Positions 5,920 to 38,797 of a stretch of DNA of 64,000 nt are shown piece after piece. The stretch is from Burkholderia sp. BCC0322. Its GTDB lineage: Bacteria; Pseudomonadota; Gammaproteobacteria; Burkholderiales; Burkholderiaceae. The stretch is from positions 1,009,927 through 1,073,926 of the forward strand of contig NZ_CADFDU010000001.1 in NCBI RefSeq assembly GCF_902833045.1, given 5' to 3'. Made by a program: the position numbers and the translations under genes. The notes below the pieces were generated by a model that was not told where the DNA came from, did not search any database, and saw only the letters and a program-made list of their open reading frames with translations. Within the stretch, counting starts at the first letter, position 1; each line of letters opens with the position of its first letter.

Positions 5920-7452
5920 TCATGCGTCGGCGGCGCTCGGCTGCGCCTCCAGCACGCGGTTGCGGCCGCCGGACTTCGCGCGGTACAGCGCCTCGTCGGC
6001 ACGCCGCAGCAGCGTCGCGGCGTTCAGGCGGCCGTTGGCCGAGGTGGCCGCACCGATGCTTGCGGTCACACGCCCGTACGGGCTTTTCGCGTGCTCGATG
6101 CCAAGTGCCGCGATTGCGTGCCGGATGCTCTCGGCGACGGTCACCGCGCCTTGCGCGTCGGTGTCGGGCAGCGTGACGACGAATTCCTCGCCGCCGTAGC
6201 GCGCGACGTGATCGCTGTCGCGGCGCAGGCAGCACGATGCGGTCTGCGCGACGCGCCGCAGCACGTCGTCGCCGGCCGGGTGCCCGTAGTAGTCGTTGAA
6301 CGCCTTGAAGTGATCGACGTCGACGAACAGCACCGACAGCGGGCGGCCGCTGCGCGACGCACGCTGGGCCTCCTTCGCGAGCACCGCGTCGAACGTGCCG
6401 CGGTTGTCAAGGCCCGTCAGCGCATCGGTGTGCGCGAGCCGGTACAGCTTCGATTCGGCGACCTGCCGGCGCTTGAGCTCGCGCGACAGCGCCAGCGAAC
6501 CCCACGCGATGAACCCGGTGAACAGGCACATCAGCACGACGGTCCAGATCGCGCGGTGGTGCCACGACGCGTAGATGTCGATCTCGGCGGGTGCGACGTC
6601 GACGATCAGCGGCAGGCCGGCGAGATGCTTGTATACATAGACGCGCCGGATGCCGTCGATCGCGCCGACCCCGGTCAGCGCGCCGTCGCGGGCGCGCTGC
6701 GAGTCGATGAAGAGCGGCGAGTCGTGCAGGTCGAGGCCGACCACATGCGGGTCGTACGGCAGGCGCGACACGAGCGTGCCGTTGTCCTCGACGATCGCCG
6801 CGCTGCCGTGCTTGCCGACCGCGAGGCCGTCGAGCAGCGCACGGAAATAGTCGATGCTGAGCGTACCGACGACGATGCCGGCGAACGTGCCGTCGGGCCC
6901 GTTGATCCGGCGGCTGAGCGCGATCGTCAATGCGCCGCCGCGTAGCCGGGCGGCATACGGCTTGCTGATGTAGAGGCCCTGCGCGAGCCCGTCGCGATGC
7001 ACGGCGAAATAGTCGCGGTCGGCGAAATTGCCTTGCCGCGCGGGCGACGCGCTCGAATCGATCACGATATTGCCGTGCGCATCCATCACGAAGATCGACC
7101 CGAGATACTCGCCGGTCGCCGCGCGGTCGAACAGCAGCCGGTGGCGCTGGCGCGGCGGCAAGGTCATCAGCTCCGGGTCGGCAATGCCGTCGACGACGTT
7201 CTGCAGCGACAAATCGTAGAGTTCGATATTGCGCGCGATATCGCGTTCGATCAGCAGCATCAGGTTGCGTGCATTTTCGACCGCATGGTCATATGCATCG
7301 CGCCGCGTCTCGATTAAAAGCGACGTGGAAAGCCCCCAGCTGAACATCAGCAGCACGATCCCCGCAACGAGCACGCCGCGGGGCGACAGAATGCGTGCCA
7401 CGATCGACGCGGTATGGCGGCGCAGCGCGGCGGGCAGCGTGATTGACTTCAT
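5920..7452 (-). CDS. Membrane diguanylate cyclase with periplasmic Cache sensor
   Basis: 510 residues. A first membrane helix lies at about 25-48. A periplasmic double-Cache (PDC) sensor domain spans about 50-290, with typical elements such as GNFADRDYF and GLYISKPY. A second helix is at about 300-325, and a GGDEF domain occupies about 345-500. The active-site motif is GGEEF (420-424). An RxxD inhibitory site (RDSD, 411-414) lies exactly five residues before it, so product feedback by c-di-GMP is predicted. It makes c-di-GMP from GTP in response to an extracytoplasmic small molecule. It is a single gene, divergent from the downstream permease. Confidence 0.92.
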   Translation of the reverse strand: MKSITLPAALRRHTASIVARILSPRGVLVAGIVLLMFSWGLSTSLLIETRRDAYDHAVENARNLMLLIERDIARNIELYDLSLQNVVDGIADPELMTLPPRQRHRLLFDRAATGEYLGSIFVMDAHGNIVIDSSASPARQGNFADRDYFAVHRDGLAQGLYISKPYAARLRGGALTIALSRRINGPDGTFAGIVVGTLSIDYFRALLDGLAVGKHGSAAIVEDNGTLVSRLPYDPHVVGLDLHDSPLFIDSQRARDGALTGVGAIDGIRRVYVYKHLAGLPLIVDVAPAEIDIYASWHHRAIWTVVLMCLFTGFIAWGSLALSRELKRRQVAESKLYRLAHTDALTGLDNRGTFDAVLAKEAQRASRSGRPLSVLFVDVDHFKAFNDYYGHPAGDDVLRRVAQTASCCLRRDSDHVARYGGEEFVVTLPDTDAQGAVTVAESIRHAIAALGIEHAKSPYGRVTASIGAATSANGRLNAATLLRRADEALYRAKSGGRNRVLEAQPSAADA

Positions 7453-17861: not shown

Positions 17862-19565
17862 ATGTTCAACAATCTCATTCAATTCGCGATCGTTCTCGCG
17901 ATCATGCTGGCGCTGGTGCCCGTCGTCGGGAGATGGCTCGCGCACGCCTTTACGAGCCCGCGCCACGCGTGGGTCGAACGCCGGACCTACGCGCTGCTCG
18001 GCGTGAATCCCGACGAAGCGATGTCGTGGCAACGCTACGGGATGGTGCTGCTGCTCAGCAATGCCGGGATGATGCTGGTCGGCTACCTGCTGCTGCGCAT
18101 CCAGGACGCACTGCCGTTCGACTCGCTGCAGCGCGCCGCGCAAAGTCCCGACCTCGCGTTCAACACGGCCGCGTCGTTCGTCACGAACACGAACTGGCAG
18201 GCGTATGCAGGCGAGAGCAGCCTGTCGAACTTCTCGCAGATGGCCGTCATCACGTTCCTGATGGTGGTCAGCGCGGCGACCGGCGTCGCGGCCGCGGGCG
18301 GCTTCATCCGCGGGCTGAGCCGCAAGAGCGCGGCGGACATCGGCAACTACTGGGTCGACTTCACCCGCGTGACCTATCGCGTGCTGCTGCCGCTCAGCTT
18401 CGTGATGGCGCTCGTGTACGTGTGGCAGGGCATGCCGCAGACGCTCGCGTCCGATGCATGGGCGACCACGCTCGAAGGCGCGCGTCAGCAGATCGTGATG
18501 GGGCCCGTTGCCAGCCTCGAATCGATCAAGCATATCGGCACGAACGGCGGCGGCTTCTTCAGCATGAACGCCGCGCATCCGTTCGAAAACCCGACGCCGC
18601 TCACCAACACGCTGCACATGCTGTCGATGCTGCTGATTCCGTCCGCGCTGACCTACGCGCTCGGCACGATGATCGGCCGGCGCCGCCAGGGCTGGGTGAT
18701 CCTCGGTGCGTTCGTCGTGATGTTCGTGGGCTTCCTGGCCGTGATCTATTCGGCCGAGCAGCACGGCAACCCGCTCGTGGCCGGGCTGGGCGTCGATCAG
18801 CAGATGAGCGCGGCGCAGCCGGGCGGCAACATGGAAGGCAAGGAAATGCGCTTCGGCATCGCGCAGACGAGCCTGTTCGCCACCGTCACGACGGCCGCGA
18901 CCACCGGGTCGGTCGATGCGATGCATGACTCGCTGACACCGCTCGGCGGCCTCGTGCCGATCGCGCAGATGATGCTGAACAACGTGTTCGGCGGCGACGG
19001 CGTCGGGCTGATCAACCTGTTCACGTTCGCGATCCTCACGGTGTTCCTCGTCGGGATGATGATCGGACGCACGCCGGAGTTCCTCGGCAAGAAGATCGAG
19101 GCGCGCGAGATGAAGCTCGTGATGCTCGCGGTGCTCGCGCATCCGTTCAGCATCCTCGGCTTCACCGCCGTGGCGTCGATGCTGCATTCGACGATGGACA
19201 GCCTCGCGAACCTCGGCCCGCACGGCTTCAGCGAAGTGCTGTACGCCTATACGTCGGGCACGGCCAACAACGGCTCCGCGTTCGCGGGCCTGAATGCGAA
19301 CACGCCGTTCTTCAACACGACGATCGGCTTCGCGATGCTGATCGGCCGTTACCTGACGCTGCTGCCGATGCTCGCGGTCGCGGGCAGCCTCGCCGCGAAG
19401 AAGCGCGTGCCGGAAAGCGCGGGCACGCTGTCGACGTCGACGGGCCTGTTCGCCGGCCTGCTGATTTTCGTGATCCTGGTGGTCGGCGGGCTCACGTTCC
19501 TGCCGGCGCTCGCGCTCGGCCCGGTCGTCGAGCATCTGCTGATGTCGGGCGGCCAACTGTTCTGA
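17862..19565 (+). CDS. kdpA: KdpA, potassium-binding channel-like subunit
   Basis: 567 residues, about ten membrane helices, related to four-fold potassium channel subunits. The family motif [20 protein letters not shown] (about residues 225-244) contains one selectivity-filter loop. KdpA selects and passes K+ while KdpB hydrolyses ATP. Unusually, the next gene is kdpC, not kdpB. Confidence 0.97.
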
Positions 19566-19575
19566 GGGAAACATC

Positions 19576-20277
19576 ATGATGCAAGGCAATCGCCAGGCAG
19601 CGGCCGCCGCCGCGCCGGCACCCGGTTCTTCGTTCGGCGCGGCGACGCGCGGCCTCGTGCGGCCCGTGATCGCGTCGTCGGTGCTGTTCATGCTCGTCAC
19701 GGGGATCGCGTATCCGCTGCTCACCACGGGCGTCGCGAACGTGCTGTTCCCGTCGCAGGCGCGCGGCAGTCTCGTGCAGCGCAGCGGCACGACGATCGGC
19801 TCGGCGGTGATCGGGCAGCCATTCACGCATGCGGGCTACTTCCACGGGCGGCCGAGCGCGACGGTCGGCGCCGATCCGGCCGATCCGTCGAAGACGGTCG
19901 ACCAGCCGTACAACGCGGCCGGCAGCGGCGCCAGCAACCAGGGCGCCACCAGCAAGAAGCTGCTCGCGGACATCGCGCAGCGTGTGCGCGCCTACCGGCA
20001 AGAGAACGCGCTCGCCGCCGGCACGCCGGTGCCGGTGGATGCCGTGACCGCGTCGGCGTCGGGGCTCGATCCCGAGATCTCGGTCGCGAACGCGCGGCTG
20101 CAGGCGGCGCGGGTCGCGCGGGCACGCGGTGTCGATGCCGCCCGGGTGGCGGCGCTGGTCGAGCGCATCGCGTTGCCGCGCCAACTCGGCGTGCTCGGCG
20201 AACCGCGCGTGCGCGTGCTCGACCTGAACCTCGCGCTGGACCGAGCATTCGGCCAGGCGGCCGGCGCGAAGCAATAG
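19576..20277 (+). CDS. kdpC: KdpC subunit of potassium ATPase
   Basis: 233 residues. After a disordered Ala-rich N-terminus (1-25), one membrane helix (about 30-55) leads to a periplasmic domain. Recognisable KdpC motifs are [21 protein letters not shown], a Ser-Gly-Ala-Ser-Asn segment and [13 protein letters not shown]. It is longer than E. coli KdpC (190) because of the N-terminus and C-terminus. The start has two consecutive ATGs; the first is used. It lies between kdpA and kdpB, reversing the usual B-C order. Confidence 0.95.
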
Positions 20278-20297
20278 CAGGAACCACGGAGTCACTC

Positions 20298-22382
20298 ATG
20301 TCCCATATCGAAACCCCGATCAATCCGGCGGCGATGCCGGTCGGCGTCGTGCCGCCGATGCGCTGGACGGCCGTGCTGCGCGAGGCATTCCGCAAGCTCG
20401 CGCCGCGCGTCCAGTTGAAGAACCCGGTGATGTTCGTCGTGTATCTCGGCAGCATCGTCACGACCGTGCTGTGGCTGCAGGCGCTGACCGGCACGGGCGA
20501 CGCGCCGGCCGGCTTCATCTTCGCGGTCGCCAGCTGGCTGTGGTTCACCGTGCTGTTCGCGAACGCGGCGGAGGCGCTGGCCGAAGGGCGCGGCAAGGCG
20601 CAGGCCGACGCCCTGCGCGCGGCGCGCAAGCGTGTGTACGCGAAGGTGCTCGACGAGCCGAAGCAATACGGCAGCACCTGCCATCGCGTGCCGAGCGACG
20701 AGCTCGCCGCCGGCAGCATCGTGCTCGTCGAGGCCGGCGACACGATTCCCGCCGATGGCGAAGTGATCGACGGCGTCGCGTCGGTCGACGAGTCGGCGAT
20801 CACCGGCGAATCCGCGCCGGTGATCCGCGAATCGGGCGGCGATTTCTCGTCGGTGACGGGCGGCACGCGCGTGCTGTCCGACTGGATCGTCGTCAGGATC
20901 ACCGCGCAACCGGGCGAAGCGTTCCTCGACCGGATGATCGCGATGGTCGAAGGCGCGAAGCGCGGCAAGACGCCGAATGAAGTCGCACTGACGATCCTGC
21001 TCGTCGCGCTGACGATCATCTTCCTGCTCGTGTGCGTGACGTTGCTGCCGTTCTCGCAGTTCAGCGTGCTGCTGAACGCGTCGGGCACGGCGGTGAGCCT
21101 GACCGTGCTGATCGCGCTGCTGGTCTGCCTGATCCCGACCACGATCGGTGCGCTGCTGTCGGCGATCGGCATCGCGGGGATGAGCCGCATGATGCGCGCG
21201 AACGTGCTCGCGACGTCGGGCCGCGCGATCGAGGCGGCCGGCGACGTCGACGTGCTGCTGCTCGACAAGACCGGCACGATCACGCTCGGCAACCGCGAGG
21301 CCGTGCAGTTCCGTCCGGCGCCGGGCGTGGACGAGCGTGCGCTGGCCGAGGCCGCGCAACTGTCGTCGCTCGCCGACGAAACGCCCGAGGGGCGCTCGAT
21401 CGTCGCGCTCGCGAAGCAGCGCTTCTCGCTGAACCTGGCCGCGACCGCCGGCAGCATCACCGTGCCGTTCAGCGCGCGCACGCGGATGAGCGGCCTCGAC
21501 ATCGGCGAGCGTCAGGTGCGCAAGGGCGCGGCGTCGGCGATTCGCGCACACGTCGATGCGCTGGGCGGTGCGTTTCCGCACGCGGTCGAGACGGCCGTCA
21601 ACGATATCGCGCGGCGCGGCGGCACGCCGCTCGTCGTTGCCGACGGCTCGCGCGTGCTCGGCGCGATCGAGCTGAAGGACATCGTCAAGCACGGGATCGC
21701 CGCGCGCTTCGCCGAGTTGCGCAAGGTTGGCGTGAAGACCGTGATGATCACCGGCGACAACCGGCTCACCGCGGCCGCGATCGCGGCGGAAGCCGGCGTC
21801 GACGACTACCTGGCGGAAGCGACGCCCGAGGACAAGCTGCGGCTGATCCGCGAGCACCAGGCGAAGGGCCATCTCGTCGCGATGACGGGCGACGGCACCA
21901 ACGACGCGCCCGCGCTCGCGCAGGCCGACGTGGCCGTCGCGATGCACAGCGGCACGCAGGCGGCGAAAGAGGCGGCCAACATGGTCGACCTCGACAGTAA
22001 CCCGACCAAGCTGATGCAGGTGGTCGAGGTCGGCAAGCAGATGATCATGACGCGCGGCGCGCTCACCACGTTCAGCGTCGCCAACGATCTCGCGAAGTAT
22101 TTCGCGATCATCCCGGCTGCGTTCGTGGCGACGTATCCGGCGCTCGGCGCGCTGAACGTGATGGGGCTGCACAGCCCGACGTCGGCGATCCTGTCGGCGG
22201 TGATCTTCAATGCGCTGATCATCGTCGCACTGATCCCGCTCGCGCTGAAGGGCGTGAAGTATCGCGCGGAGCCGGCCGAGACGCTGCTGGGGCGCAACCT
22301 GCTGATCTACGGTGTGGGCGGCATCGTCGCACCCTTCATCGGCATCAAGCTGATCGACATGCTGTTGACGCCGTTTATCTGA
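20298..22382 (+). CDS. kdpB: KdpB, P-type ATPase subunit
   Basis: 694 residues. P-type ATPase signatures are the actuator motif TGES (169-172), phosphorylation motif DKTGT with Asp323, nucleotide-domain and hinge motif [10 protein letters not shown] near the C-terminal third, and helices before and after. It powers K+ uptake by the Kdp complex in the inner membrane. It is 20 bp after kdpC and 80 bp before kdpD. Confidence 0.98.
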
Positions 22383-22462
22383 CCGAATGCGCCGTCGCGG
22401 CCCCGTTCACGCCTTCACGGCGTGCGCGGGGCCGTTCGGCGTTTCAATTGCCGGAAGCGATC

Positions 22463-24169
22463 ATGGATGTGAATGTGAACGTGAGCGAAGCGAATCGACG
22501 GGCAACGGGGCCGCGGGACACCGCCGCCCGCCGCGGCGGGGACGGCGCGCGCCGCGATCGCTGGCGAGGCGTGCTGCGCGCGTGCGCGGCGCTCGCCGAC
22601 CGCATCGCGGGGGCGGGGCCGGATACGCGGCCGACGCTGGCCGTGCGCGAAGCGCGGCCGCGCACGCACGCGTGGGTATCGCAGTACGCAATGCCGCTGC
22701 TGCTCGCCACGCTCGTGTGCGCGTTGGCCACGCTGGCGGCGAGCGCGCTGCTGCGCGTGTTCGACCTGTCGAACGTCGTGATGCTGTTCCTGATGACCGT
22801 CGTGCTGATCGCGCTGCGGCTCGGCCGGCTGGCCGGCGCGTGGGCCGCGTTCGTCTGCGTCGGCTGCTTCGACTTCTTCTTCGTCGAGCCGAGGCTGTCG
22901 TTCGCGGTGTCCGATACGCAGTACGTGTTCACGTTCGCGCTGATGCTGGCCGTCGCGCTCGCGATTGGCCAGCTCGCGGCACGCCTGCGCGCGGAGGCGC
23001 GGGCCGCGCGCGCGAACGAGAAACGCTCGGCCGCGCTCGCACGGGTCGCGCACGACCTGTCGGCTGCGATCGAGACCGAGCAGATCGCCTCGATTTGCAC
23101 CGGCACGATCGCGCCGCTGCTCGGCGTGCGTGTCGCGCTCGTGCTGCCGGATGCGGATGACCGTTTGCTGCCGGCGCAGCACGCAGGGTTCGTCGAAGCA
23201 CCGATCGCCCGCTGGGTCTACGAGCATGCACGCGGCGCCGGGTGCGGGCTGCCGCCGTTCGAGCGCGCGGCCGCGCAATACCTGCCGCTGAAGGCGCCGA
23301 TGCGCGTGCGCGGCGTGCTCGTGCTGTTCGGCGACGCGCAGCCGGTGCCCACGGACCCCGACGATCGCCGCCTGATCGATGCGCTGTGCTCGTCGATCGC
23401 GATGGCGCTCGAACGCGTGCACTACGTTGGCGTCGCGCAGCACACGCTCGTGCGGATCGAAGGCGAGCGGCTGCGCAATGCGCTGCTCGCCGCGGTGTCG
23501 CATGACCTGAAGACGCCGCTGACCGCGATCCGCGGGCTCGCCGAGACGCTGGAGCGACCCGAGCGGCTGGCCGACGGCCAGCCGGCCGCGCTCGCGCACG
23601 GCATTCGCAACCAGGCCGAGGCGCTGCACGGACTCGTCGTGAACCTGCTCGATCTCGCGCGCATGCAGAGCGAGGGCGTGCGGCTCAATCGCGAGTGGCA
23701 CATGCTCGACGAGATCGTCGGCAGCGCGCTCGCGCATTCGGCCGGCGTGCTGGCCGGCCGCGACGTGAGCGCCGATTTGCCCGCCGACCTGCCGCTGATC
23801 GACGTCGACGCGCTGCTGATCGAGCGCGTGTTGATGAACCTGCTCGACAACGCGGCGAAATACGCGGGCACGGACGCGGCCGTGGCGGTGCGGGCACGCG
23901 TGTTCGGCGAAACGCTTTACGTATTCGTCGAGGACGACGGGCCCGGCTTCATTGCGCGCAATACCGAGCCGCTGTTCGAGCCGTTCGAGCGCGAACGCAA
24001 GGAATCGTCGATCAGCGGCGTGGGGCTCGGGCTCGCGCTGTGCCGCAGCATCGTCAACGCGCACGGCGGCTCGATCCGCGCGGTGCCGCTCGATCCGCAC
24101 GGCGCGCGGTTCGAGATTCGCCTGCCACTGGGCGCGCCGCCCGACATCGAACACGAGAGCCGGACATGA
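22463..24169 (+). CDS. kdpD: KdpD sensor kinase lacking the N-terminal KdpD/Usp region
   Basis: 568 residues from the ATG with GGAAG upstream; a TTG at 22448 is an alternative. The domain order is a basic, low-complexity N-terminus (1-70), a DUF4118 four-helix membrane region (about 75-175), a GAF-like domain (about 200-320), HisKA with SHDLKTPL (phosphoacceptor His347) and an ATPase domain with DNAAKYA, EDDGPGF and GVGLGLAL. Full KdpD proteins have about 370 further N-terminal residues with a Walker motif and universal-stress domain; these are absent here and I see no trace upstream. It overlaps kdpE by 4 bp. Confidence 0.88.
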   Translation: MDVNVNVSEANRRATGPRDTAARRGGDGARRDRWRGVLRACAALADRIAGAGPDTRPTLAVREARPRTHAWVSQYAMPLLLATLVCALATLAASALLRVFDLSNVVMLFLMTVVLIALRLGRLAGAWAAFVCVGCFDFFFVEPRLSFAVSDTQYVFTFALMLAVALAIGQLAARLRAEARAARANEKRSAALARVAHDLSAAIETEQIASICTGTIAPLLGVRVALVLPDADDRLLPAQHAGFVEAPIARWVYEHARGAGCGLPPFERAAAQYLPLKAPMRVRGVLVLFGDAQPVPTDPDDRRLIDALCSSIAMALERVHYVGVAQHTLVRIEGERLRNALLAAVSHDLKTPLTAIRGLAETLERPERLADGQPAALAHGIRNQAEALHGLVVNLLDLARMQSEGVRLNREWHMLDEIVGSALAHSAGVLAGRDVSADLPADLPLIDVDALLIERVLMNLLDNAAKYAGTDAAVAVRARVFGETLYVFVEDDGPGFIARNTEPLFEPFERERKESSISGVGLGLALCRSIVNAHGGSIRAVPLDPHGARFEIRLPLGAPPDIEHESRT

Positions 24170-32380: not shown

Positions 32381-32407
32381 TAAACATCGCGGGAACGGTG
32401 CCGATAA
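32381..32407 (+). promoter_or_regulatory. Sigma-28 (FliA) promoter
   Basis: TAAA (32381-32384), exactly 15 bp, then GCCGATAA (32400-32407). This is the full enterobacterial FliA consensus TAAA-N15-GCCGATAA. The -10 ends 29 bp before the lipoprotein ATG. It puts the following operon in the late flagellar/chemotaxis regulon. Confidence 0.8.
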
Positions 32408-32436: not shown

Positions 32437-32823
32437 GTGAAACCGTTCGTCATGATTGTCTTTGCCACTGCGCTCGTCATGTCAGCCGGCTGCGCCCAAC
32501 TTCAACCCGGACGCCAGGACGCGAATGCGCACACCGACCCACCTGCCGCGTCGACATCGCTCGTCGATTTCGTCATACCAGCCGATGCGCTCGGCGCGCG
32601 CGATCCTCAACTGACCGCGTTGCTCGCGAAAGTCGGTGCGCTGGCATCGAAGCAATCGCAACCGATGACGATTCGCGTGGCCGCGCTGCCGCAGGATTTC
32701 GGCTACCTGAACCAGTCGATCCGGCGCGGCATCACGACGCCGCGTGCTGCGTCGGTGCGCGTCGAGAACGTCGCGGCCGGCAGTTGCCGCCCGTACAGCG
32801 TCCAGGTCGGACCGACCCAGTAA
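32437..32823 (+). CDS. Small lipoprotein, first gene of the sigma-28 operon
   Basis: 128 residues. Lipoprotein signal MKPFVMIVFATALVMSAGC with lipobox Cys19. The mature protein has no family I recognise; a hydrophobic-charged central part (about 45-100) suggests a small folded domain. It lies 14 bp before the next exported protein and shares its sigma-28 promoter. Role inferred only from context: envelope accessory of the motility-linked cluster. Confidence 0.7.
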   Translation: MKPFVMIVFATALVMSAGCAQLQPGRQDANAHTDPPAASTSLVDFVIPADALGARDPQLTALLAKVGALASKQSQPMTIRVAALPQDFGYLNQSIRRGITTPRAASVRVENVAAGSCRPYSVQVGPTQ

Positions 32824-32837
32824 CAGGAGATCCCGCG

Positions 32838-33221
32838 ATGCTACGACTGTCGATCTGTGCCGCCATGCTCGTGTGCGGCACCGCCTTTGCGACACCGCCG
32901 GGCGACGGCGCGCCGTTTGCCCCTGCCGCCTCCAATCAGGTGTTTCCGCCGCTGCCGCCATTCGCGTCGCTGCCGCCGGGCGCGGGCGGCGACGATGACG
33001 TGCAGGCGCCCGCGCCGGCGGGCAGCCGTCATGCGAAGAAGCTGCGCCACGCATCACCCGCGAAGAAGGCCCCGGAATTCCAGGTGCGACTCGTCGTGAC
33101 CGACGAGTCGCGCGCGGCGCTCGCGGCCGAGGACAAGAAGCTCGACGACGCGCTGGCGAAGAGCACGCACGAGCGACGCACGACGGGGGCCGGTGCAGCT
33201 GCGCTGGCGATGACGCCATGA
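32838..33221 (+). CDS. Exported Pro/Ala-rich protein
   Basis: 127 residues. Signal peptide MLRLSICAAMLVCGTAFA, then a proline-rich stretch (about 20-60, PLPPFASLPPG), a basic patch and a helical charged C-terminus. AGGAG lies upstream. It overlaps the transglycosylase gene by 4 bp, so the two are coupled. Family not recognised. Confidence 0.65.
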   Translation: MLRLSICAAMLVCGTAFATPPGDGAPFAPAASNQVFPPLPPFASLPPGAGGDDDVQAPAPAGSRHAKKLRHASPAKKAPEFQVRLVVTDESRAALAAEDKKLDDALAKSTHERRTTGAGAAALAMTP

Positions 33222-33742
33222 ACCTGCGGAATCGAAGCGGCGGATACGTGACGGCCCGCACCCGGATGGTCGCGATGCGGCCCGGCTTCATGCCGTGGCT
33301 GGGGTTCGCGATGGTGTTGCTGAGCGCACTCGTCGTCACCCCGGTGCGTGCGGACGACGCCGTGCCCGACGGCGAATGCTTCGAACGCGCAGCCGGCTAT
33401 CAGGGCGTCAACCCGCAGATCCTGCGCGCGATCGCCTGGTATGAATCGAAGGGCAACCCCAGCGCCGTGCATCGCAACGCGGACGGCAGCATCGACGTCG
33501 GCCAGACCCAGATCAACTCGGTGCACTTCGGCGAACTGCGCCGCAACGGCGTACCGCCGGGCGCGCTGAAGGACGCGTGCGTGAACCTCTACGTCGCGGC
33601 GTGGATGCTCAAACGCAAGATGGTCCGCTACGGGAACACCTGGCAGGCGATCGGCGCGTATCACTCGGAAACGCCGCGCTATCGGGACGAATACGCGCGA
33701 AACATCCACGCGGTGCTCGTGTCGTGGGGCTTGCACGAGTGA
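33218..33742 (+). CDS. Lytic transglycosylase (SLT, IagB/VirB1-like)
   Basis: 174 residues, N-terminal membrane anchor or signal (about 25-46). The SLT domain includes catalytic Glu76 in AIAWYESKGNPSAVHRN, the DVGQTQINSVHF motif and the GAYHSETPRYRDEYA motif. Small specialised transglycosylases of this kind open peptidoglycan for trans-envelope machines such as secretion systems, pili and flagella. Here it precedes stator-like genes. Confidence 0.9.
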   Translation: MNLRNRSGGYVTARTRMVAMRPGFMPWLGFAMVLLSALVVTPVRADDAVPDGECFERAAGYQGVNPQILRAIAWYESKGNPSAVHRNADGSIDVGQTQINSVHFGELRRNGVPPGALKDACVNLYVAAWMLKRKMVRYGNTWQAIGAYHSETPRYRDEYARNIHAVLVSWGLHE

Positions 33743-33968
33743 GCCGCGTGCTCGTGTGCGTATGCGTGTGTGTTGAAGGCCGGAAGTAAGGATCGCGGCG
33801 GGCCTGGCCGATCCGGGGAACGTGCGGTGTCTCGTCGTTTTCCCGGATGCATCGTGCCGTATCCGCAGCGCAAACGATTTGCATCAAGTTTTGCTCGGGG
33901 CATCCCTGTGATGACGTTAAAGAACCCTACCGCGTGTGTCGTAAACGGGAGCACGGGGAACGGCGGCG

Positions 33969-35273
33969 ATGATCGCGCATGAAGCGCGACGCGCAGCCGC
34001 ACAAGTAAGTCAGCGCAGCAGGGGAATCGACTTGAATCGTCAGCAATCGTGGACGCGTACGGCGGCGCCAGGGGAAATCATTTACTCCGAGGGCTTTGCA
34101 GGTGAGCCCGTCATCTTTCTGATCACCGAAGGCAAGGTCGAGCTGTCCACGCGATGCGACGACAAGCGCGTCGTCGTCGCGACACTCGGCCGCGGCGAGT
34201 TCTTCGGGGAATCGGCGTTGCTCGCGGCCGAGCCGCGTGCCCATACCGCGAAGGCCCTTTCATTCTGTCAGCTCACGGTCGTGCCGGCCGGCATGCTCGA
34301 TGAAGAAATCGAGCGCGTGTCGGCGCTGCTGCGTCATATCGTGCGGACGATGATTCGCCGCGTGAAGCGCAAGGACGACCAGCTCGCCACCTACACGCAC
34401 GCCGATTTCATGCCGGGCGTGCTGTCGTATGCGCATGTGCTGTCGCTGATGGCGGGCGCCGATGCGCGCGATGGCGGCGACGCCTGGACGCGCCGGCCGA
34501 TGCAGGTGCATGCGGCCGAAACCTCGGTGCCGCTCGCCGAAGTGATCCGCAAATGCCGCGCGATCGCCGGCCATTCGCGGCCGCACGTGCTCGCGATGCT
34601 GCGACGCATGGAGAAGCTCAATCTCGTCACGATCGAGGCCGCGCAGACGGACCTCTCCGGTGGCGCAACCGACTATGCGGCGTCGTCGGACGCGCGCCAG
34701 GTCGTCACGTTCGACGCCGCGCGCGTGATCGATCGCGCGCAGCAGGTGGCCGATCACGATCTCGACCTGTCGATCAACAGCGAACTCGAACTCATCGAGC
34801 TGGCCGATCTCGAATCGCTGATCGGCGTCGAGAAGACGATCCTCCTCAACAAGCTGTCGAACGGCGAGATCGCCGACGAAGTGTTCGCGTTCCGCAAATC
34901 GAAGGTGCTCAGCTACGTCGAGCAGAAGGGTGTCGCGTACTTCGCGCGGCGCAATGCGCGTCGTGGCGAGGTGCGCTCGCTGGAGGATCTCGTGTCGATC
35001 GACCAGCGCACGCTGTTCGACGTCATCAGCGCATTCGATACCTACGATCTCGCGAAGCTCATCGCGAATCTCGACGATCGCGCGGTGGCCGACAAGCTGT
35101 TCTCCGTGATGACCGAGGCGCGGCGCAACGAGGTGTCGTGGGTGATGCGTCGCGAGCTCAAGCTCGATCCGGTCGAGATCGAGGACATCGAGCGGCGCGT
35201 GCTGGATGCCGTTCGCTCGGCGAAGGCGCCGGCGGCGGCCATCGCGGCGGTCGCGTCGGCATCGGATGCATGA
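33969..35273 (+). CDS. Cyclic-nucleotide-binding / FliG C-terminal domain fusion protein
   Basis: 434 residues, cytosolic. Residues about 30-108 form a cNMP-binding domain. Its phosphate-binding cassette GEFFGESALLAAEPRAHTAK (76-95) is close to the protein kinase A/CRP cassette, with the conserved Glu81 and Arg90. Residues about 140-225 look like a CRP-type winged helix (VPLAEVIRKCRAIAGHSRPH, then VLAMLRRMEKLNLV). Residues about 270-418 match FliG middle/C-terminal helices: SLEDLVSIDQRTLFDVISAF, DLAKLIANLDDRAVADKLFS and the LDPVEIEDIERRVLDAV tail. FliG-C is the rotor face touched by stators. The next two genes are MotA and MotB paralogues, so this is probably a nucleotide-responsive rotor-like or adaptor protein. 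Confidence 0.8.
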   Translation: MIAHEARRAAAQVSQRSRGIDLNRQQSWTRTAAPGEIIYSEGFAGEPVIFLITEGKVELSTRCDDKRVVVATLGRGEFFGESALLAAEPRAHTAKALSFCQLTVVPAGMLDEEIERVSALLRHIVRTMIRRVKRKDDQLATYTHADFMPGVLSYAHVLSLMAGADARDGGDAWTRRPMQVHAAETSVPLAEVIRKCRAIAGHSRPHVLAMLRRMEKLNLVTIEAAQTDLSGGATDYAASSDARQVVTFDAARVIDRAQQVADHDLDLSINSELELIELADLESLIGVEKTILLNKLSNGEIADEVFAFRKSKVLSYVEQKGVAYFARRNARRGEVRSLEDLVSIDQRTLFDVISAFDTYDLAKLIANLDDRAVADKLFSVMTEARRNEVSWVMRRELKLDPVEIEDIERRVLDAVRSAKAPAAAIAAVASASDA

Positions 35274-35286
35274 CGAGGGGGCGCGT

Positions 35287-36051
35287 ATGGACCTGTTGAC
35301 CCTGGCCGGTGTGGTGCTCGGTGGCGCGGCGATCGTGTTTGGTTTCGCGCTGGAAGGCGGGCATTTCTCGATGCTGTTCCAGTTCGAGGCGCTCGTGATC
35401 GTGCTCGGTGGCACGCTCGGCGCGGTGATGATCCAGAACACCTGGGCGCGCTTCTTCGACGCGGTGAAACAGCTGCGGCTCGCGTTCGTCCGTGCGCGCG
35501 AGGTCGATCGCCAGAACCTGTCCGACCTGCTCGAATGGGGCGACCGCGCGAAGCTCGACGGGCTGCTCGCGTTCGAATCGATGGACGTGAGCGGCATCCA
35601 TCCGTTCGCGCGCCGCGGGCTCGAACTGCTGGCCAACGGCGTGTCGACCGCCGTGCTCGAGGACGCGTTGCAGCGCGAACTCGATGCCTACGAACGCAGC
35701 CGCCTCGCCGCCGCGCGCGTGTGGCAGCAGGCCGGCGGGTATGCGCCGACGTTCGGCATTCTCGGCTCGGTGCTCGGGCTCGTGCAGGTGACGAGCCATA
35801 TTCTCGAACCGGCGCAGCTCGGGCCGGGCATCGCGGTCGCGTTCATCGCGACGCTGTACGGGCTGGCGTTCGCCAACCTCGTGTTCCTGCCGCTGTACGG
35901 CAAGCTGCGTGCGCAGATCGACAGCGAGCTGCGGTTTCGCAAGCTGTATCTCGACGGATTGCTGGCGATCTCGCGCAAGGAATCGCCGCATACGATCGAG
36001 ACGCGCCTGACCGGCGACGTGCGCGGGCGCGCGGTCGAATCGCTCGCATGA
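35287..36051 (+). CDS. MotA-family stator subunit
   Basis: 254 residues, four membrane helices. Family signatures are EALVIVLGGTLGAVMIQ (about 34-50), the cytoplasmic loop RAKLDGLLAFESMD, then HPFARRGLELLANGV with conserved Arg and Glu for rotor contact, APTFGILGSVLGLV and GPGIAVAFIATLYGLAFANLVFLP with both essential prolines. It starts 13 bp after the cNMP-FliG gene, so the two are co-transcribed. A second (non-housekeeping) stator is likely because no flagellar operon is adjacent. Confidence 0.9.
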   Translation: MDLLTLAGVVLGGAAIVFGFALEGGHFSMLFQFEALVIVLGGTLGAVMIQNTWARFFDAVKQLRLAFVRAREVDRQNLSDLLEWGDRAKLDGLLAFESMDVSGIHPFARRGLELLANGVSTAVLEDALQRELDAYERSRLAAARVWQQAGGYAPTFGILGSVLGLVQVTSHILEPAQLGPGIAVAFIATLYGLAFANLVFLPLYGKLRAQIDSELRFRKLYLDGLLAISRKESPHTIETRLTGDVRGRAVESLA

Positions 36052-36090
36052 TGCGCGGGTGTTGTACGACGAACCCGGAATTCCAACCGC

Positions 36091-36765
36091 ATGACTGCTC
36101 GAACTGACGGTGCATCCGCCGCCGATCGCGACGACGACGAACACGAAGGCGCGCAATCCGGCCGCTGGCTGATTTCATACGCGGATCTCATCACGACGCT
36201 GATGGTGCTGTTTCTCGCGTTGTACGTGCTTCAGCTCGCGAAATACAACGCGCTTGATGCGCGGTACCAGACGCTCGCGCGGCATGCCGAAAGCGCAGCG
36301 GGTGCATCCCCATCCGCTGCCGTGACGCCCGAGCACTCGCCGCCGTGGCTCGCGTTGCTCGATTCGTTGAAGTCGAACGGCCGGATCTCGCTCGTGAAAG
36401 CGCCGCATGGCGTCGAGATCGGCATCGACGCGAAGATCCTGTTCAATGTTGGCGATGCGCGCCTGCTGCCCGATTCGTCGCCCGTGCTGAACCAGATCGC
36501 GCAGGCGCTGAGCGATCACGCGACCGGCGACATTCTCGTCGAAGGGCACACCGACAGCGTGCCGATCGCGAACGCGAAATACGAATCGAACTGGGAGCTG
36601 TCGTCGGCGCGCGCGGGGAGCGTCGTGCGCTACCTGACCGAGCGCGGCGTCGCACCGCATCGGCTCGCGGCCATCGGGCGGGCCGATACGCAGCCGCTCG
36701 TCGCGGGGGACGATGCGGCCGCGCGGGCGCGGAACCGTCGTGTCACGATCTTCGTGGCGTATTGA
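36091..36765 (+). CDS. MotB-family stator subunit with OmpA domain
   Basis: 224 residues. The single helix starts WLISYADLITTLMVLFLALY, with the proton-carrying Asp32. A linker (about 60-85) leads to an OmpA/MotB peptidoglycan-binding domain with VEGHTDSVPIANAKYESNWE and LSSARAGSVVRYL, ending RNRRVTIFV. It anchors the MotA-like channel to the cell wall. It lies 39 bp downstream of the motA-like gene. Confidence 0.92.
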   Translation: MTARTDGASAADRDDDEHEGAQSGRWLISYADLITTLMVLFLALYVLQLAKYNALDARYQTLARHAESAAGASPSAAVTPEHSPPWLALLDSLKSNGRISLVKAPHGVEIGIDAKILFNVGDARLLPDSSPVLNQIAQALSDHATGDILVEGHTDSVPIANAKYESNWELSSARAGSVVRYLTERGVAPHRLAAIGRADTQPLVAGDDAAARARNRRVTIFVAY

Positions 36766-36886
36766 TTCACGCTGGATTTTCGTTGATCGCGCATCCATAG
36801 GCGGCTGCATATGCCCGCCTGACAACACCATAACGAATCTCGCATGATGAACATCTGAAATCAGCGATGCGGTTCTGCGCGTGCAT

Positions 36887-36894
36887 GCCGATAA
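36887..36894 (+). promoter_or_regulatory. Candidate sigma-28 -10 element before the chemoreceptor
   Basis: Exact GCCGATAA octamer ending 40 bp before the MCP start. No TAAA is present at the expected 15-bp spacing, so this is only a partial promoter match. Confidence 0.35.
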
Positions 36895-36934
36895 CCCAAA
36901 CTGGCTCAGACCGAGCGGTTATCGAGGGTTCCCC

Positions 36935-38797
36935 ATGCATTTCTGGCGCAAGCTTTCCATTCAGAACAAGCTGATTCTCAGCATGACGAGTTGCCTGCTC
37001 GTGTTCGTCGCGATCTCGAGCGGGCTCAGCATCCGTCTGATCGGCAACGCGGTGCGCGATCGCGTCGTGCGCGAAGAGCTGCCGACGGCCGTGAACGGCA
37101 TCCGCGCCGACGTGCAGCGGCAGATGGCCGGGCCGATCGCCGCGTCGCGGATTCTCGCGCGCGATGCGTTCCTGCTGCAATGGGAAGCCGACGGCGAACC
37201 CGACGCCGGCACGCGCAACTGGATCCAGCTCGCGAAGAACGTGAAGGACGAGCAGAAGGCCGCGTCGGTGCAGTGGGTGTCCGTGAAGAGCGGCAACTAC
37301 TACAACGAATCCGGCTTGCAGCGGAAGGTGACCGACAAGGATCAGTGGCTGACCGGCTTCCTGTCGTCCGGCAAGGCGTTCGACGTGAACATGGACCGCG
37401 AGGTGACGGTCGGCGGCTACATGATGTTCATCAACAGCCGCGTCGAGCTCGACGGCGTGCCGATCGGCGCGGCCTGCATGAGCCTGTCCGTCGATGCGCT
37501 CGCGAAGGGCATCGCTGCTTACCGGATCGGCGAGACCGGGTTCGCGTATCTCGTGCGTCCCGACGGCGCGATCATGATGCATCGCGATTCGTCGCTGATC
37601 GACGGCAAGCATTTCATGAAGGATCAACCGGGGTTGCCCGGCGATGCGTCGTCGACGCTGCTGGCCGGCCAGCCGTATGCGTACCTGAGCTACAACGGCG
37701 ACGGCGGCGCGCGCTTCATCGCGACGTCGTTCATTCCGGAGTTGAACGCGTATGTCGTCGTCGAGGTGCCGCAGGCCGAACTGCTCGGGCCGGTGACGCG
37801 CGCGATCCGCAGCGCCGCGCTGGTGGCGGCGGTGGTGGCCCTCGGCGTCGCGTTGCTCGTGATCTGGCTGGTGGGCCGCGCGATCGCCGCGCCGATCCGC
37901 CGCGCGGCGACGCTGCTGTCGGAGATCGCCAGCGGCCAGGGCGACCTGACGCGCCGGATGACGGTCGAGAGCCAGGACGAGATCGGGCAGTTGTCGGATG
38001 CGTTCAACCGGTTCGTGTCGTCGCTGTCGACGCTGGTGCATAGCATTCGCGCGGCGTCCTCGTCGATTGCGACCGGGTCGGCGCAGATTGCGACCGGGAA
38101 TGCCGATCTCAGCGAACGCACCGAAGGGCAGTCGAGCAACCTGGAGCGCACGGCTTCGTCGATGGAGGAGATCACGGCCGTGGTGCGCAACAACACCGAA
38201 ACGGCGACGACGGCCGCGAAGATGATCAACGGCGCTTCCGATGCGGCGGCGCGCGGCGGGCAGGTGGTGGGTGAGGTCGTGACCACGATGCAGGAGATCA
38301 GCGACGCGTCGCAGCGGATCTCCGAGATCATCGTGATGATCGACAGCATCTCGTTCCAGACGAATATTCTTGCGTTGAACGCGGCGGTGGAAGCGGCGCG
38401 GGCCGGGGAGCAGGGGCGCGGGTTTGCGGTGGTGGCTTCGGAAGTGCGGAATCTCGCGCAGCGCAGCGCGCAGGCGGCGAAGGAGATCAAGGGGCTGATC
38501 GAGCATAGCGCGGGCACGGTGAATACCGGGTCGCGGCTGGTGAGCGAGGCCGGGAAAGTGATGCGCGATGTCGTGTCGCAAGTGCAGGGCGTGAGCGCGA
38601 TGATGAACGAGATTGCCGAGGCGAGCCTGGAGCAGAGTGCCGGGATCGATCAGATCGGGGAGGCGGTGCAGTCGCTCGATCAGATGACGCAACAGAATGC
38701 GGCGCTGGTGGAAGAAAGCGCGGCGGCGGCGGCGAGCTTGAAGCAGCAGGCGGCGGAATTGACCCGGCTGGTGTCGGCTTTCAAGGTGGATGAATAA
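36935..38797 (+). CDS. Methyl-accepting chemotaxis protein
   Basis: 620 residues. First helix about 12-32, periplasmic Cache-type sensor region about 35-285 (with [15 protein letters not shown] and [11 protein letters not shown]), second helix about 290-315, HAMP (about 315-370), then the signalling domain. The signalling tip [21 protein letters not shown] is followed by the absolutely conserved [16 protein letters not shown]. It feeds ligand information to CheA. The start at 36935 has GAGGG upstream and leaves the GCCGATAA element non-coding. It is 169 bp from motB. Confidence 0.93.

Follow-up and report, generated by a model that had tools for sequence, protein, structure and literature searches.

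A Conserved Burkholderia Gene Cassette Pairs a Cyclic-Nucleotide Receptor Bearing a FliG_C-like Tail with Its Own MotA/MotB Stator

We analyzed a 64,000-nucleotide stretch of the genome of Burkholderia sp. BCC0322 (GCF_902833045.1, NZ_CADFDU010000001.1, positions 1,009,927–1,073,926, forward strand; hereafter, the window) and found a three-gene cassette that is carried by many Burkholderia-type bacteria. Its first gene encodes a cyclic-nucleotide (cNMP) receptor with a tail resembling FliG_C, the C-terminal domain of the flagellar rotor protein FliG, and the other two encode a private MotA/MotB stator pair (Table 1). The sequence evidence suggests, with a probability of slightly over one half, that the cassette serves the flagellar motor as an accessory stator module under cyclic-nucleotide control. 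An initial annotation of the window knew of no published system of this architecture. This holds among the literature matches listed, none of which describes the cassette or a fusion of a cyclic-nucleotide-binding domain (CNBD) to FliG_C, with subscription papers largely outside the coverage.

The three genes recur together while their surroundings vary. We compared the window with loci L021–L091 (72 Burkholderia and Paraburkholderia loci in all), setting aside three of 74 loci, one with a CNBD only (L094) and two pieces at contig edges (L092 and L093), as well as L001–L020. The neighborhood comparison used open reading frames (ORFs) of at least 130 amino acids, with 15 loci as queries, and skipped ORFs in other frames that overlap the cassette. 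Counterparts of the fusion, MotA, and MotB were each found in 72/72 loci, among them that of Paraburkholderia xenovorans LB400 (L079). The best flanking ORF, a chemoreceptor, was present in 24 of the 72, and no other flanking gene reached a higher count. Because they did not recur with the cassette, this methyl-accepting chemotaxis protein, a lytic transglycosylase, and ORF 38845 were dropped as candidate parts of it. Outside the 72-locus set, L001–L020 contain MotA and MotB matches in 20/20 cases; L092 and L093 belong to one genome, L092 being a partial copy with a motA fragment and no motB, and L093 having both genes. All parts of the cassette are under purifying selection (dN/dS of 0.03–0.36 in six pairs), and the third-position G+C of the three genes (0.80–0.88) lies within the range of other candidate window genes.

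Within the nearest genus, 29 of the 37 genomes examined have full-length fusions. Across the family, 58 of the 249 genomes sampled, from 5 of 25 genera, carry the fusion; the 58 carriers include G840 (locus L151), whose match is weak and partial. Twenty-four genomes from other families of the order gave a CNBD-only match or none. A plasmid collection contained eight records with the fusion, two of them from Caballeronia, and a gene name was found in one of the eight ("cyclic nucleotide-binding domain-containing protein"). A phage origin was rejected, as phage records had no match to the C-terminal part of the fusion.

The domain content of the fusion is consistent with a Crp-like protein extended by a FliG_C tail. 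In the window protein, PF00027 (E = 2.1e-17) and PF01706 (E = 1.7e-5, 25.5 bits against a cut-off of 23.3) both exceed their Pfam cut-offs, bearing out the CRP/PKA-type nucleotide-binding domain and the FliG-type C-terminal helices proposed initially. Nothing else in Pfam, including FliG_N, FliG_M, and PilZ, matched at E up to 10. In CNBDs, a Glu and an Arg of the phosphate-binding cassette contact ribose and phosphate. This cassette is intact in the fusion, with Glu81 and Arg90 invariant in 28/28 aligned fusions and in 13/13 sequences of an alignment with four distant members. Across 180 columns that take in the winged helix, a profile of 14 fusions is collinear with that of 12 Crp/Fnr regulators (hhalign, E = 1.9e-25), and the middle of the fusion alone scored 25.9 against Crp/Fnr vs 16.8 for the best of 60 shuffles, in support of the winged-helix-like middle that had been annotated. 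No Pfam helix-turn-helix (HTH) family scored above cut-off in this middle part. Gly201-His-Ser-Arg204 and Val207 are invariant in 28/28 Burkholderiaceae fusions; the Ser-Arg pair, at the place of the recognition helix, is not conserved among the distant members aligned. HTH_17 matched the linker in 2 of 8 members scanned (E = 0.02 and 0.062) and gave no match in the window protein.

The tail is likely a divergent homologue of FliG_C, a link carried by Pfam and by distant members of the family. In five distant fusions, Pfam FliG_C scored 27.5 to 38.3 bits (cut-off 23.3). We built a 13-member family profile from seven fusions of Burkholderiaceae cassettes, to which the divergent L151 and the five distant fusions were added. 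Against 15 canonical FliGs, this profile gave a single hhalign alignment, located at FliG columns 222–327 (probability 87.9, E = 3.2e-6), with a score of 47.3 compared to 20.9 for the best of 60 column shuffles. A search of the phylum (398 genomes) with the family profile recovered two Burkholderia fusions and four ORFs of 337–342 amino acids (E = 1.1e-4 to 5.6e-4), the latter sharing 29–30% identity with canonical FliG across almost the whole length. The C-terminal part as a single sequence matched T. maritima FliG in the PDB at E = 0.017; PDB searches with middle and C-terminal profiles returned nothing below E = 0.25. L151 has no Pfam FliG_C match.

The stator genes lie close behind, with gaps of 13 bp (fusion to motA) and 39 bp (motA to motB), as first annotated. 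The window MotA passes NCBIfam PRK09109 (250.9 bits, cut-off 237), and MotB scores best against MotD, though under the cut-off of that model. MotA_ExbB, MotA_N, MotB plug, and OmpA domains are all present. The key residues singled out at the start, MotB Asp32 and MotA Pro154 and Pro202, proved invariant in 16/16 aligned cassettes. MotA Lys89 and Glu97 are likewise invariant (16/16) and align with PomA Arg88 and Glu96, which, together with PomA Lys89 and Glu97, we take to be stator-interface residues.

The same fusion architecture is found in other families of the class at 25–27% identity. A search of 369 genomes of the class gave four matches outside the genus, and a fifth genome came from an order-level search with matches in 3 of 4 genomes. 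PF00027 and PF01706 are above cut-off in all five fusions, and motAB adjoins three of them (G177, G165, and G293; not G294 or G801). Class III cyclases are encoded near the fusion in at least two of these five genomes, directly upstream in G177 and 2.4 kb downstream in G801, where it is a CHASE2-cyclase, the flanking ORFs of the other three having been scanned in part. Canonical FliG was present in 4/4 distant genomes tested, and G801 has FliM. In G293, a CNBD-only protein sits between the fusion and motA (L110 5849–6322). G294 contains two further large FliG_C-bearing ORFs (L116 3143–4747 and L117 3–2864), one of them with two FliG_C matches; reuse of FliG_C may have happened repeatedly in this lineage.

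We then considered links between the cassette and the flagellum. The element upstream of the fusion appears to be sigma-28 (FliA)-like, since it resembles E. coli FliA sites compiled in PMC4183435; no paper on Burkholderia FliA, from which a consensus could be taken, was among the literature matches listed. TAAAG occurs at −125 to −100 from the start codon in 59/72 loci, one of which (L086) is without the rest of the element. The pattern TAAA-N15/16-G[CT]CG[AT][AT]A was found in 39/72 loci, compared to a mean of 0.17 and a maximum of 2/72 in 200 random draws of 70-nt slots from these loci, with the pattern defined post hoc, the control slots mostly coding, and the loci related. A looser pattern matched 58/72 loci; having no separate control, it is not counted as evidence. 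In L151, a divergent orphan, TAAA-N15-GCCGTTA is located at −113.

FliG_M is present in 57 of the 58 carriers vs 191 of 249 family genomes overall. The sole carrier without it, G1015, is also without FliM, and its cassette (L150 6325–9169) is broken: the fusion is split over two frames and MotB over three, and MotA is open. In the nearest-genus sample, canonical FliG was found in 36 of 37 genomes, the exception (G032) being 82% complete. All eight genomes of this genus without a full-length fusion keep FliG, indicating that the cassette is not needed for the flagellar rotor. In Burkholderia sp. lig30 (L091), a full-length FliG (TIGR00207, 338 bits) lies ∼0.65 kb after motB, an arrangement found in 1 of the 71 loci L021–L091. 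This FliG behind the cassette is the second full-length one (L148 10132–11160) and shares 66% identity with the FliG of G001.

Published systems suggest how such a module could work. The torque helix of FliG is its MotA-binding part (PMC11087270), and the C-terminal helix of YcgR binds the MotA residues that touch this helix (PMC12713396). Since the fusion combines a FliG_C-like end with its own stator, and since the FliG torque helix and YcgR both bind MotA, the cassette would most simply be a nucleotide-controlled clutch or brake. The receptor would bind cAMP or cGMP, and the FliG_C tail would dock onto the MotA pentamer of its own stator, at the cytoplasmic face by which the rotor is normally gripped. 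Binding of the nucleotide might expose or hide the tail, such that the accessory stator is kept off the rotor or freed to it. The module would then act much as YcgR does with cyclic di-GMP (c-di-GMP), except that the gripping part is a rotor mimic and the first target is the private stator; whether the nucleotide brakes or boosts is a sign that cannot be read from sequence. Because FliF- and FliM-binding domains are absent, the fusion is not expected to be a structural subunit of the C-ring. For the cNMP-gated FliG_C adaptor with a dedicated stator that was originally proposed, the unit in 72/72 loci, a second stator lineage, and the cyclases in at least two of the five distant genomes speak in favor, while its contact, ligand, and sign are what we infer.

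The proposed role can be set beside known proteins. Like YcgR, the fusion would be a soluble second-messenger receptor at the MotA–FliG interface; YcgR uses a PilZ domain and c-di-GMP, whereas the fusion has a Crp-like cNMP domain, a FliG_C-like tail, a co-encoded stator, and no PilZ (PMC12713396). FliG and the fusion have related C-terminal FliG_C domains, the stator-binding part in FliG (PMC11087270), but the fusion differs from FliG in its lack of FliG_N and FliG_M, its attached Crp-like receptor, and the absence of a flagellar gene beside it among the scanned window ORFs. The MotAB/MotCD dual stators of Pseudomonas resemble the cassette in that MotC/MotD-like stator genes occur in a flagellate (PMC9765564); in the cassette, the stator is paired with a nucleotide receptor that ends in a mimic of the rotor. 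MotL of Shewanella putrefaciens is likewise a small second-messenger receptor, specific to one of several motors, but consists of PilZ only and responds to c-di-GMP (PMC8203827). Crp/Fnr regulators share with the fusion a cNMP-binding domain, a connecting helix, and a winged-helix-like segment in the same order, and differ from it by the FliG_C-like tail, the weakness of its winged helix, and the co-encoded stator.

Several observations weigh against a flagellar stator module. Fourteen of the 72 loci (L049–L056, L058–L062, and L086) lack the sigma-28-like element, and the 350 bp ahead of each of the five distant fusions did not show it either. The co-occurrence of carriers with FliG-positive genomes is confounded by descent, and flagellar dependence is read from one broken case, G1015, in which sequencing or assembly errors are possible. 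A single stop codon lies inside 2 of 29 fusion matches in the genus sample and 4 of 58 in the family sample, and no cAMP/cGMP-type cyclase was seen among 31 window ORFs scanned. The initial annotation would give up the motor interpretation if homologues occurred without motAB neighbors, and this is partly the case: motAB accompanies the fusion in all 72 loci, and the divergent homologues L111, L128, and L151 are without adjacent motAB; these homologues could act on other stators. In the MotA tree, 14 Burkholderiaceae cassette MotA proteins form one clade (99/100) and three distant ones another (96/99), with the two clades unjoined; long branches are present in the tree, along with unresolved forks and a 57-amino-acid fragment, so that separate origins of the two stator lineages are not proved.

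The tail itself adds to these objections. Profiles made from Burkholderiaceae members only matched FliG with a probability of 3–4%, at a different part of FliG, and our own hidden Markov model of canonical FliG cannot tell fusions from shuffles, which score equally. As far as weak alignments indicate, Burkholderiaceae fusions lack most of the charges found on the rotor side of FliG in E. coli. At the place of E. coli R281, these alignments put Ala, Val, or Thr in the seven Burkholderiaceae cassette members and Arg in four of six divergent members, with His in L128 and Ala in L151; the other charged positions mostly differ. On the stator side, the charges of PomA Lys89 and Glu97 align with Leu and the invariant Ser98 of the cassette MotA. 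With most rotor-side charges apparently missing and these two stator-side charges unmatched, docking on MotA is not demonstrated.

Other explanations have to be weighed against the flagellar module. The initial annotation left a choice between a flagellar brake or booster and a separate envelope motor, the latter being one in which MotAB would rotate against peptidoglycan, with the fusion as the part being turned or holding it, as in the Tol-Pal, Exb, and Zorya-type 5:2 motors. Such a motor would suit the full stator of the cassette and the result of the Pfam scan, in which 31 window ORFs showed no flagellar gene apart from the cassette. When the three cassette proteins were compared with the PADLOC models, MotB matched ZorB (E = 5.5e-22), as would probably be so for MotB proteins generally; the fusion matches only AbiEi (0.001), MotA matches nothing at E up to 0.01, and hence no ZorA–ZorB pair was found, nor does any further gene recur in all loci. 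Considering the broken G1015 cassette, the FliG_M co-occurrence, and the sigma-28-like element, we moved the separate motor down and regard it as unlikely; the evidence points to the flagellum. We also think it unlikely that the fusion is a transcription factor that reads the motor, with its Crp-like part binding DNA and cNMP and with stators sequestering the tail, such that stator occupancy or load sets expression. The collinear Crp/Fnr match through the winged helix, the invariant Gly201–Arg204 and Val207 residues, and the possible second HTH_17-like segment agree with this role, but the loss of the Ser-Arg pair in distant members and the absence of a Pfam HTH above cut-off do not, and no site with fewer than 3/10 mismatches to the E. 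coli Crp consensus was found upstream in the 16 loci examined, a result on which autoregulation was rejected. Quite doubtful is a combination in which a Crp-type transcription factor captured the stator-gripping domain of the rotor, rides its private stator, senses both cNMP and load engagement, and thereby converts motor state to expression while also braking.

That the tail is simply a helical bundle of the FliG/MgtE_N superfamily, serving oligomerization or contact with a membrane protein, with the motAB adjacency having no rotor meaning, seems rather unlikely. The sequence match is weak, and MgtE_N also matches L109, L111, and L128 (E = 0.56, 0.0018, and 0.026), but FliG_C outscores it in each, the wider family aligns by profile with FliG_C, and in each of two lineages the fusion is accompanied by a motAB pair. 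A true alternative rotor subunit, replacing or joining FliG in part of the C-ring, would be in keeping with the FliG_C homology and with the full FliG paralogue right after the cassette in lig30. It is nevertheless very unlikely, since FliG_N and FliG_M are missing from the fusion, and with them the known contacts to FliF and FliM, and the charge pattern of the torque helix seems not to be kept.

The fusion more likely starts at TTG 34032 (413 amino acids) than at ATG 33969 (434 amino acids), and the protein of 434 residues first annotated is thus an actual ORF (33969–35273) whose length is corrected; residue numbers follow the 434-amino-acid version. This choice is based on the AGGGGAA ahead of TTG, on the codon ahead of the first conserved residue, which is a start codon in 70 of 72 loci (TTG in 61, GTG in 8, and ATG in 1, with AAT in the remaining 2), and on in-frame stops that separate the upstream start from the TTG-position codon in 6/71 loci. 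A GGGG run lies just 5′ of the likely start in 15/15 rows printed.

Table 1. Positions of the cassette genes, their domains, and upstream elements in the window
Feature	Position	Strand	Remarks
Sigma-28 (FliA)-like promoter element	33918–33945	+	TAAAG-N15-GTCGTAAA; 114 bp 5′ of likely start codon
Shine-Dalgarno-like AGGGGAA	34020–34026	+	Precedes likely TTG start
Crp-like/FliG_C fusion protein	34032–35273	+	Likely 413 aa from TTG 34032 (434 aa from ATG 33969)
Cyclic-nucleotide-binding domain	34056–34313	+	Residues 30–115; PF00027; Glu81, Arg90 of phosphate-binding cassette invariant
Crp/Fnr-type winged-helix-like segment	34521–34643	+	∼Residues 185–225; profile alignment
Linker, possible second HTH_17-like helix-turn-helix, weak	34770–34982	+	Residues 268–338
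FliG_C-like domain	34977–35222	+	Residues 337–418; PF01706, profile-profile alignment
MotA (MotC-type) stator subunit, 254 aa	35287–36051	+	Pro154/Pro202; interface residues Lys89, Glu97 invariant
MotB (MotD-like) stator subunit, 224 aa	36091–36765	+	Asp32; OmpA-type peptidoglycan-binding domain

Window ORFs with Pfam matches encode metabolic, transport, regulatory, and signaling proteins in addition to the chemoreceptor. Just 5′ of the cassette is an IagB-like lytic transglycosylase (33218–33742), on the same strand as a small lipoprotein-like ORF (32437–32823) that has no Pfam match and is preceded by an exact sigma-28-type consensus, TAAA-N15-GCCGATAA (32381–32407). A dCache chemoreceptor (36881–38797, with the real start probably at ATG 36935) has GCCGATAA upstream, which is kept in 23 of the 24 Burkholderia loci having the chemoreceptor. 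The window also encodes a dCache-GGDEF diguanylate cyclase (5920–7452, minus strand) and, at 17862–24169, what is probably a kdp potassium-uptake cluster, in which KdpA (17862) is joined by a P-type ATPase and a histidine kinase with DUF4118. An intergenic stretch of the window contains one perfect short palindrome, palindromes other than the Crp type having been sought in the window only.

The second-messenger motor regulators compared above (PMC12713396; PMC8203827) work via c-di-GMP and PilZ proteins. If the flagellar reading of the cassette is true, a cNMP receptor joined to a FliG_C relative and equipped with its own stator would represent a second, independent solution to second-messenger control of the motor. 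The cassette would then also be a natural tool for asking what effect FliG_C alone has on a stator.

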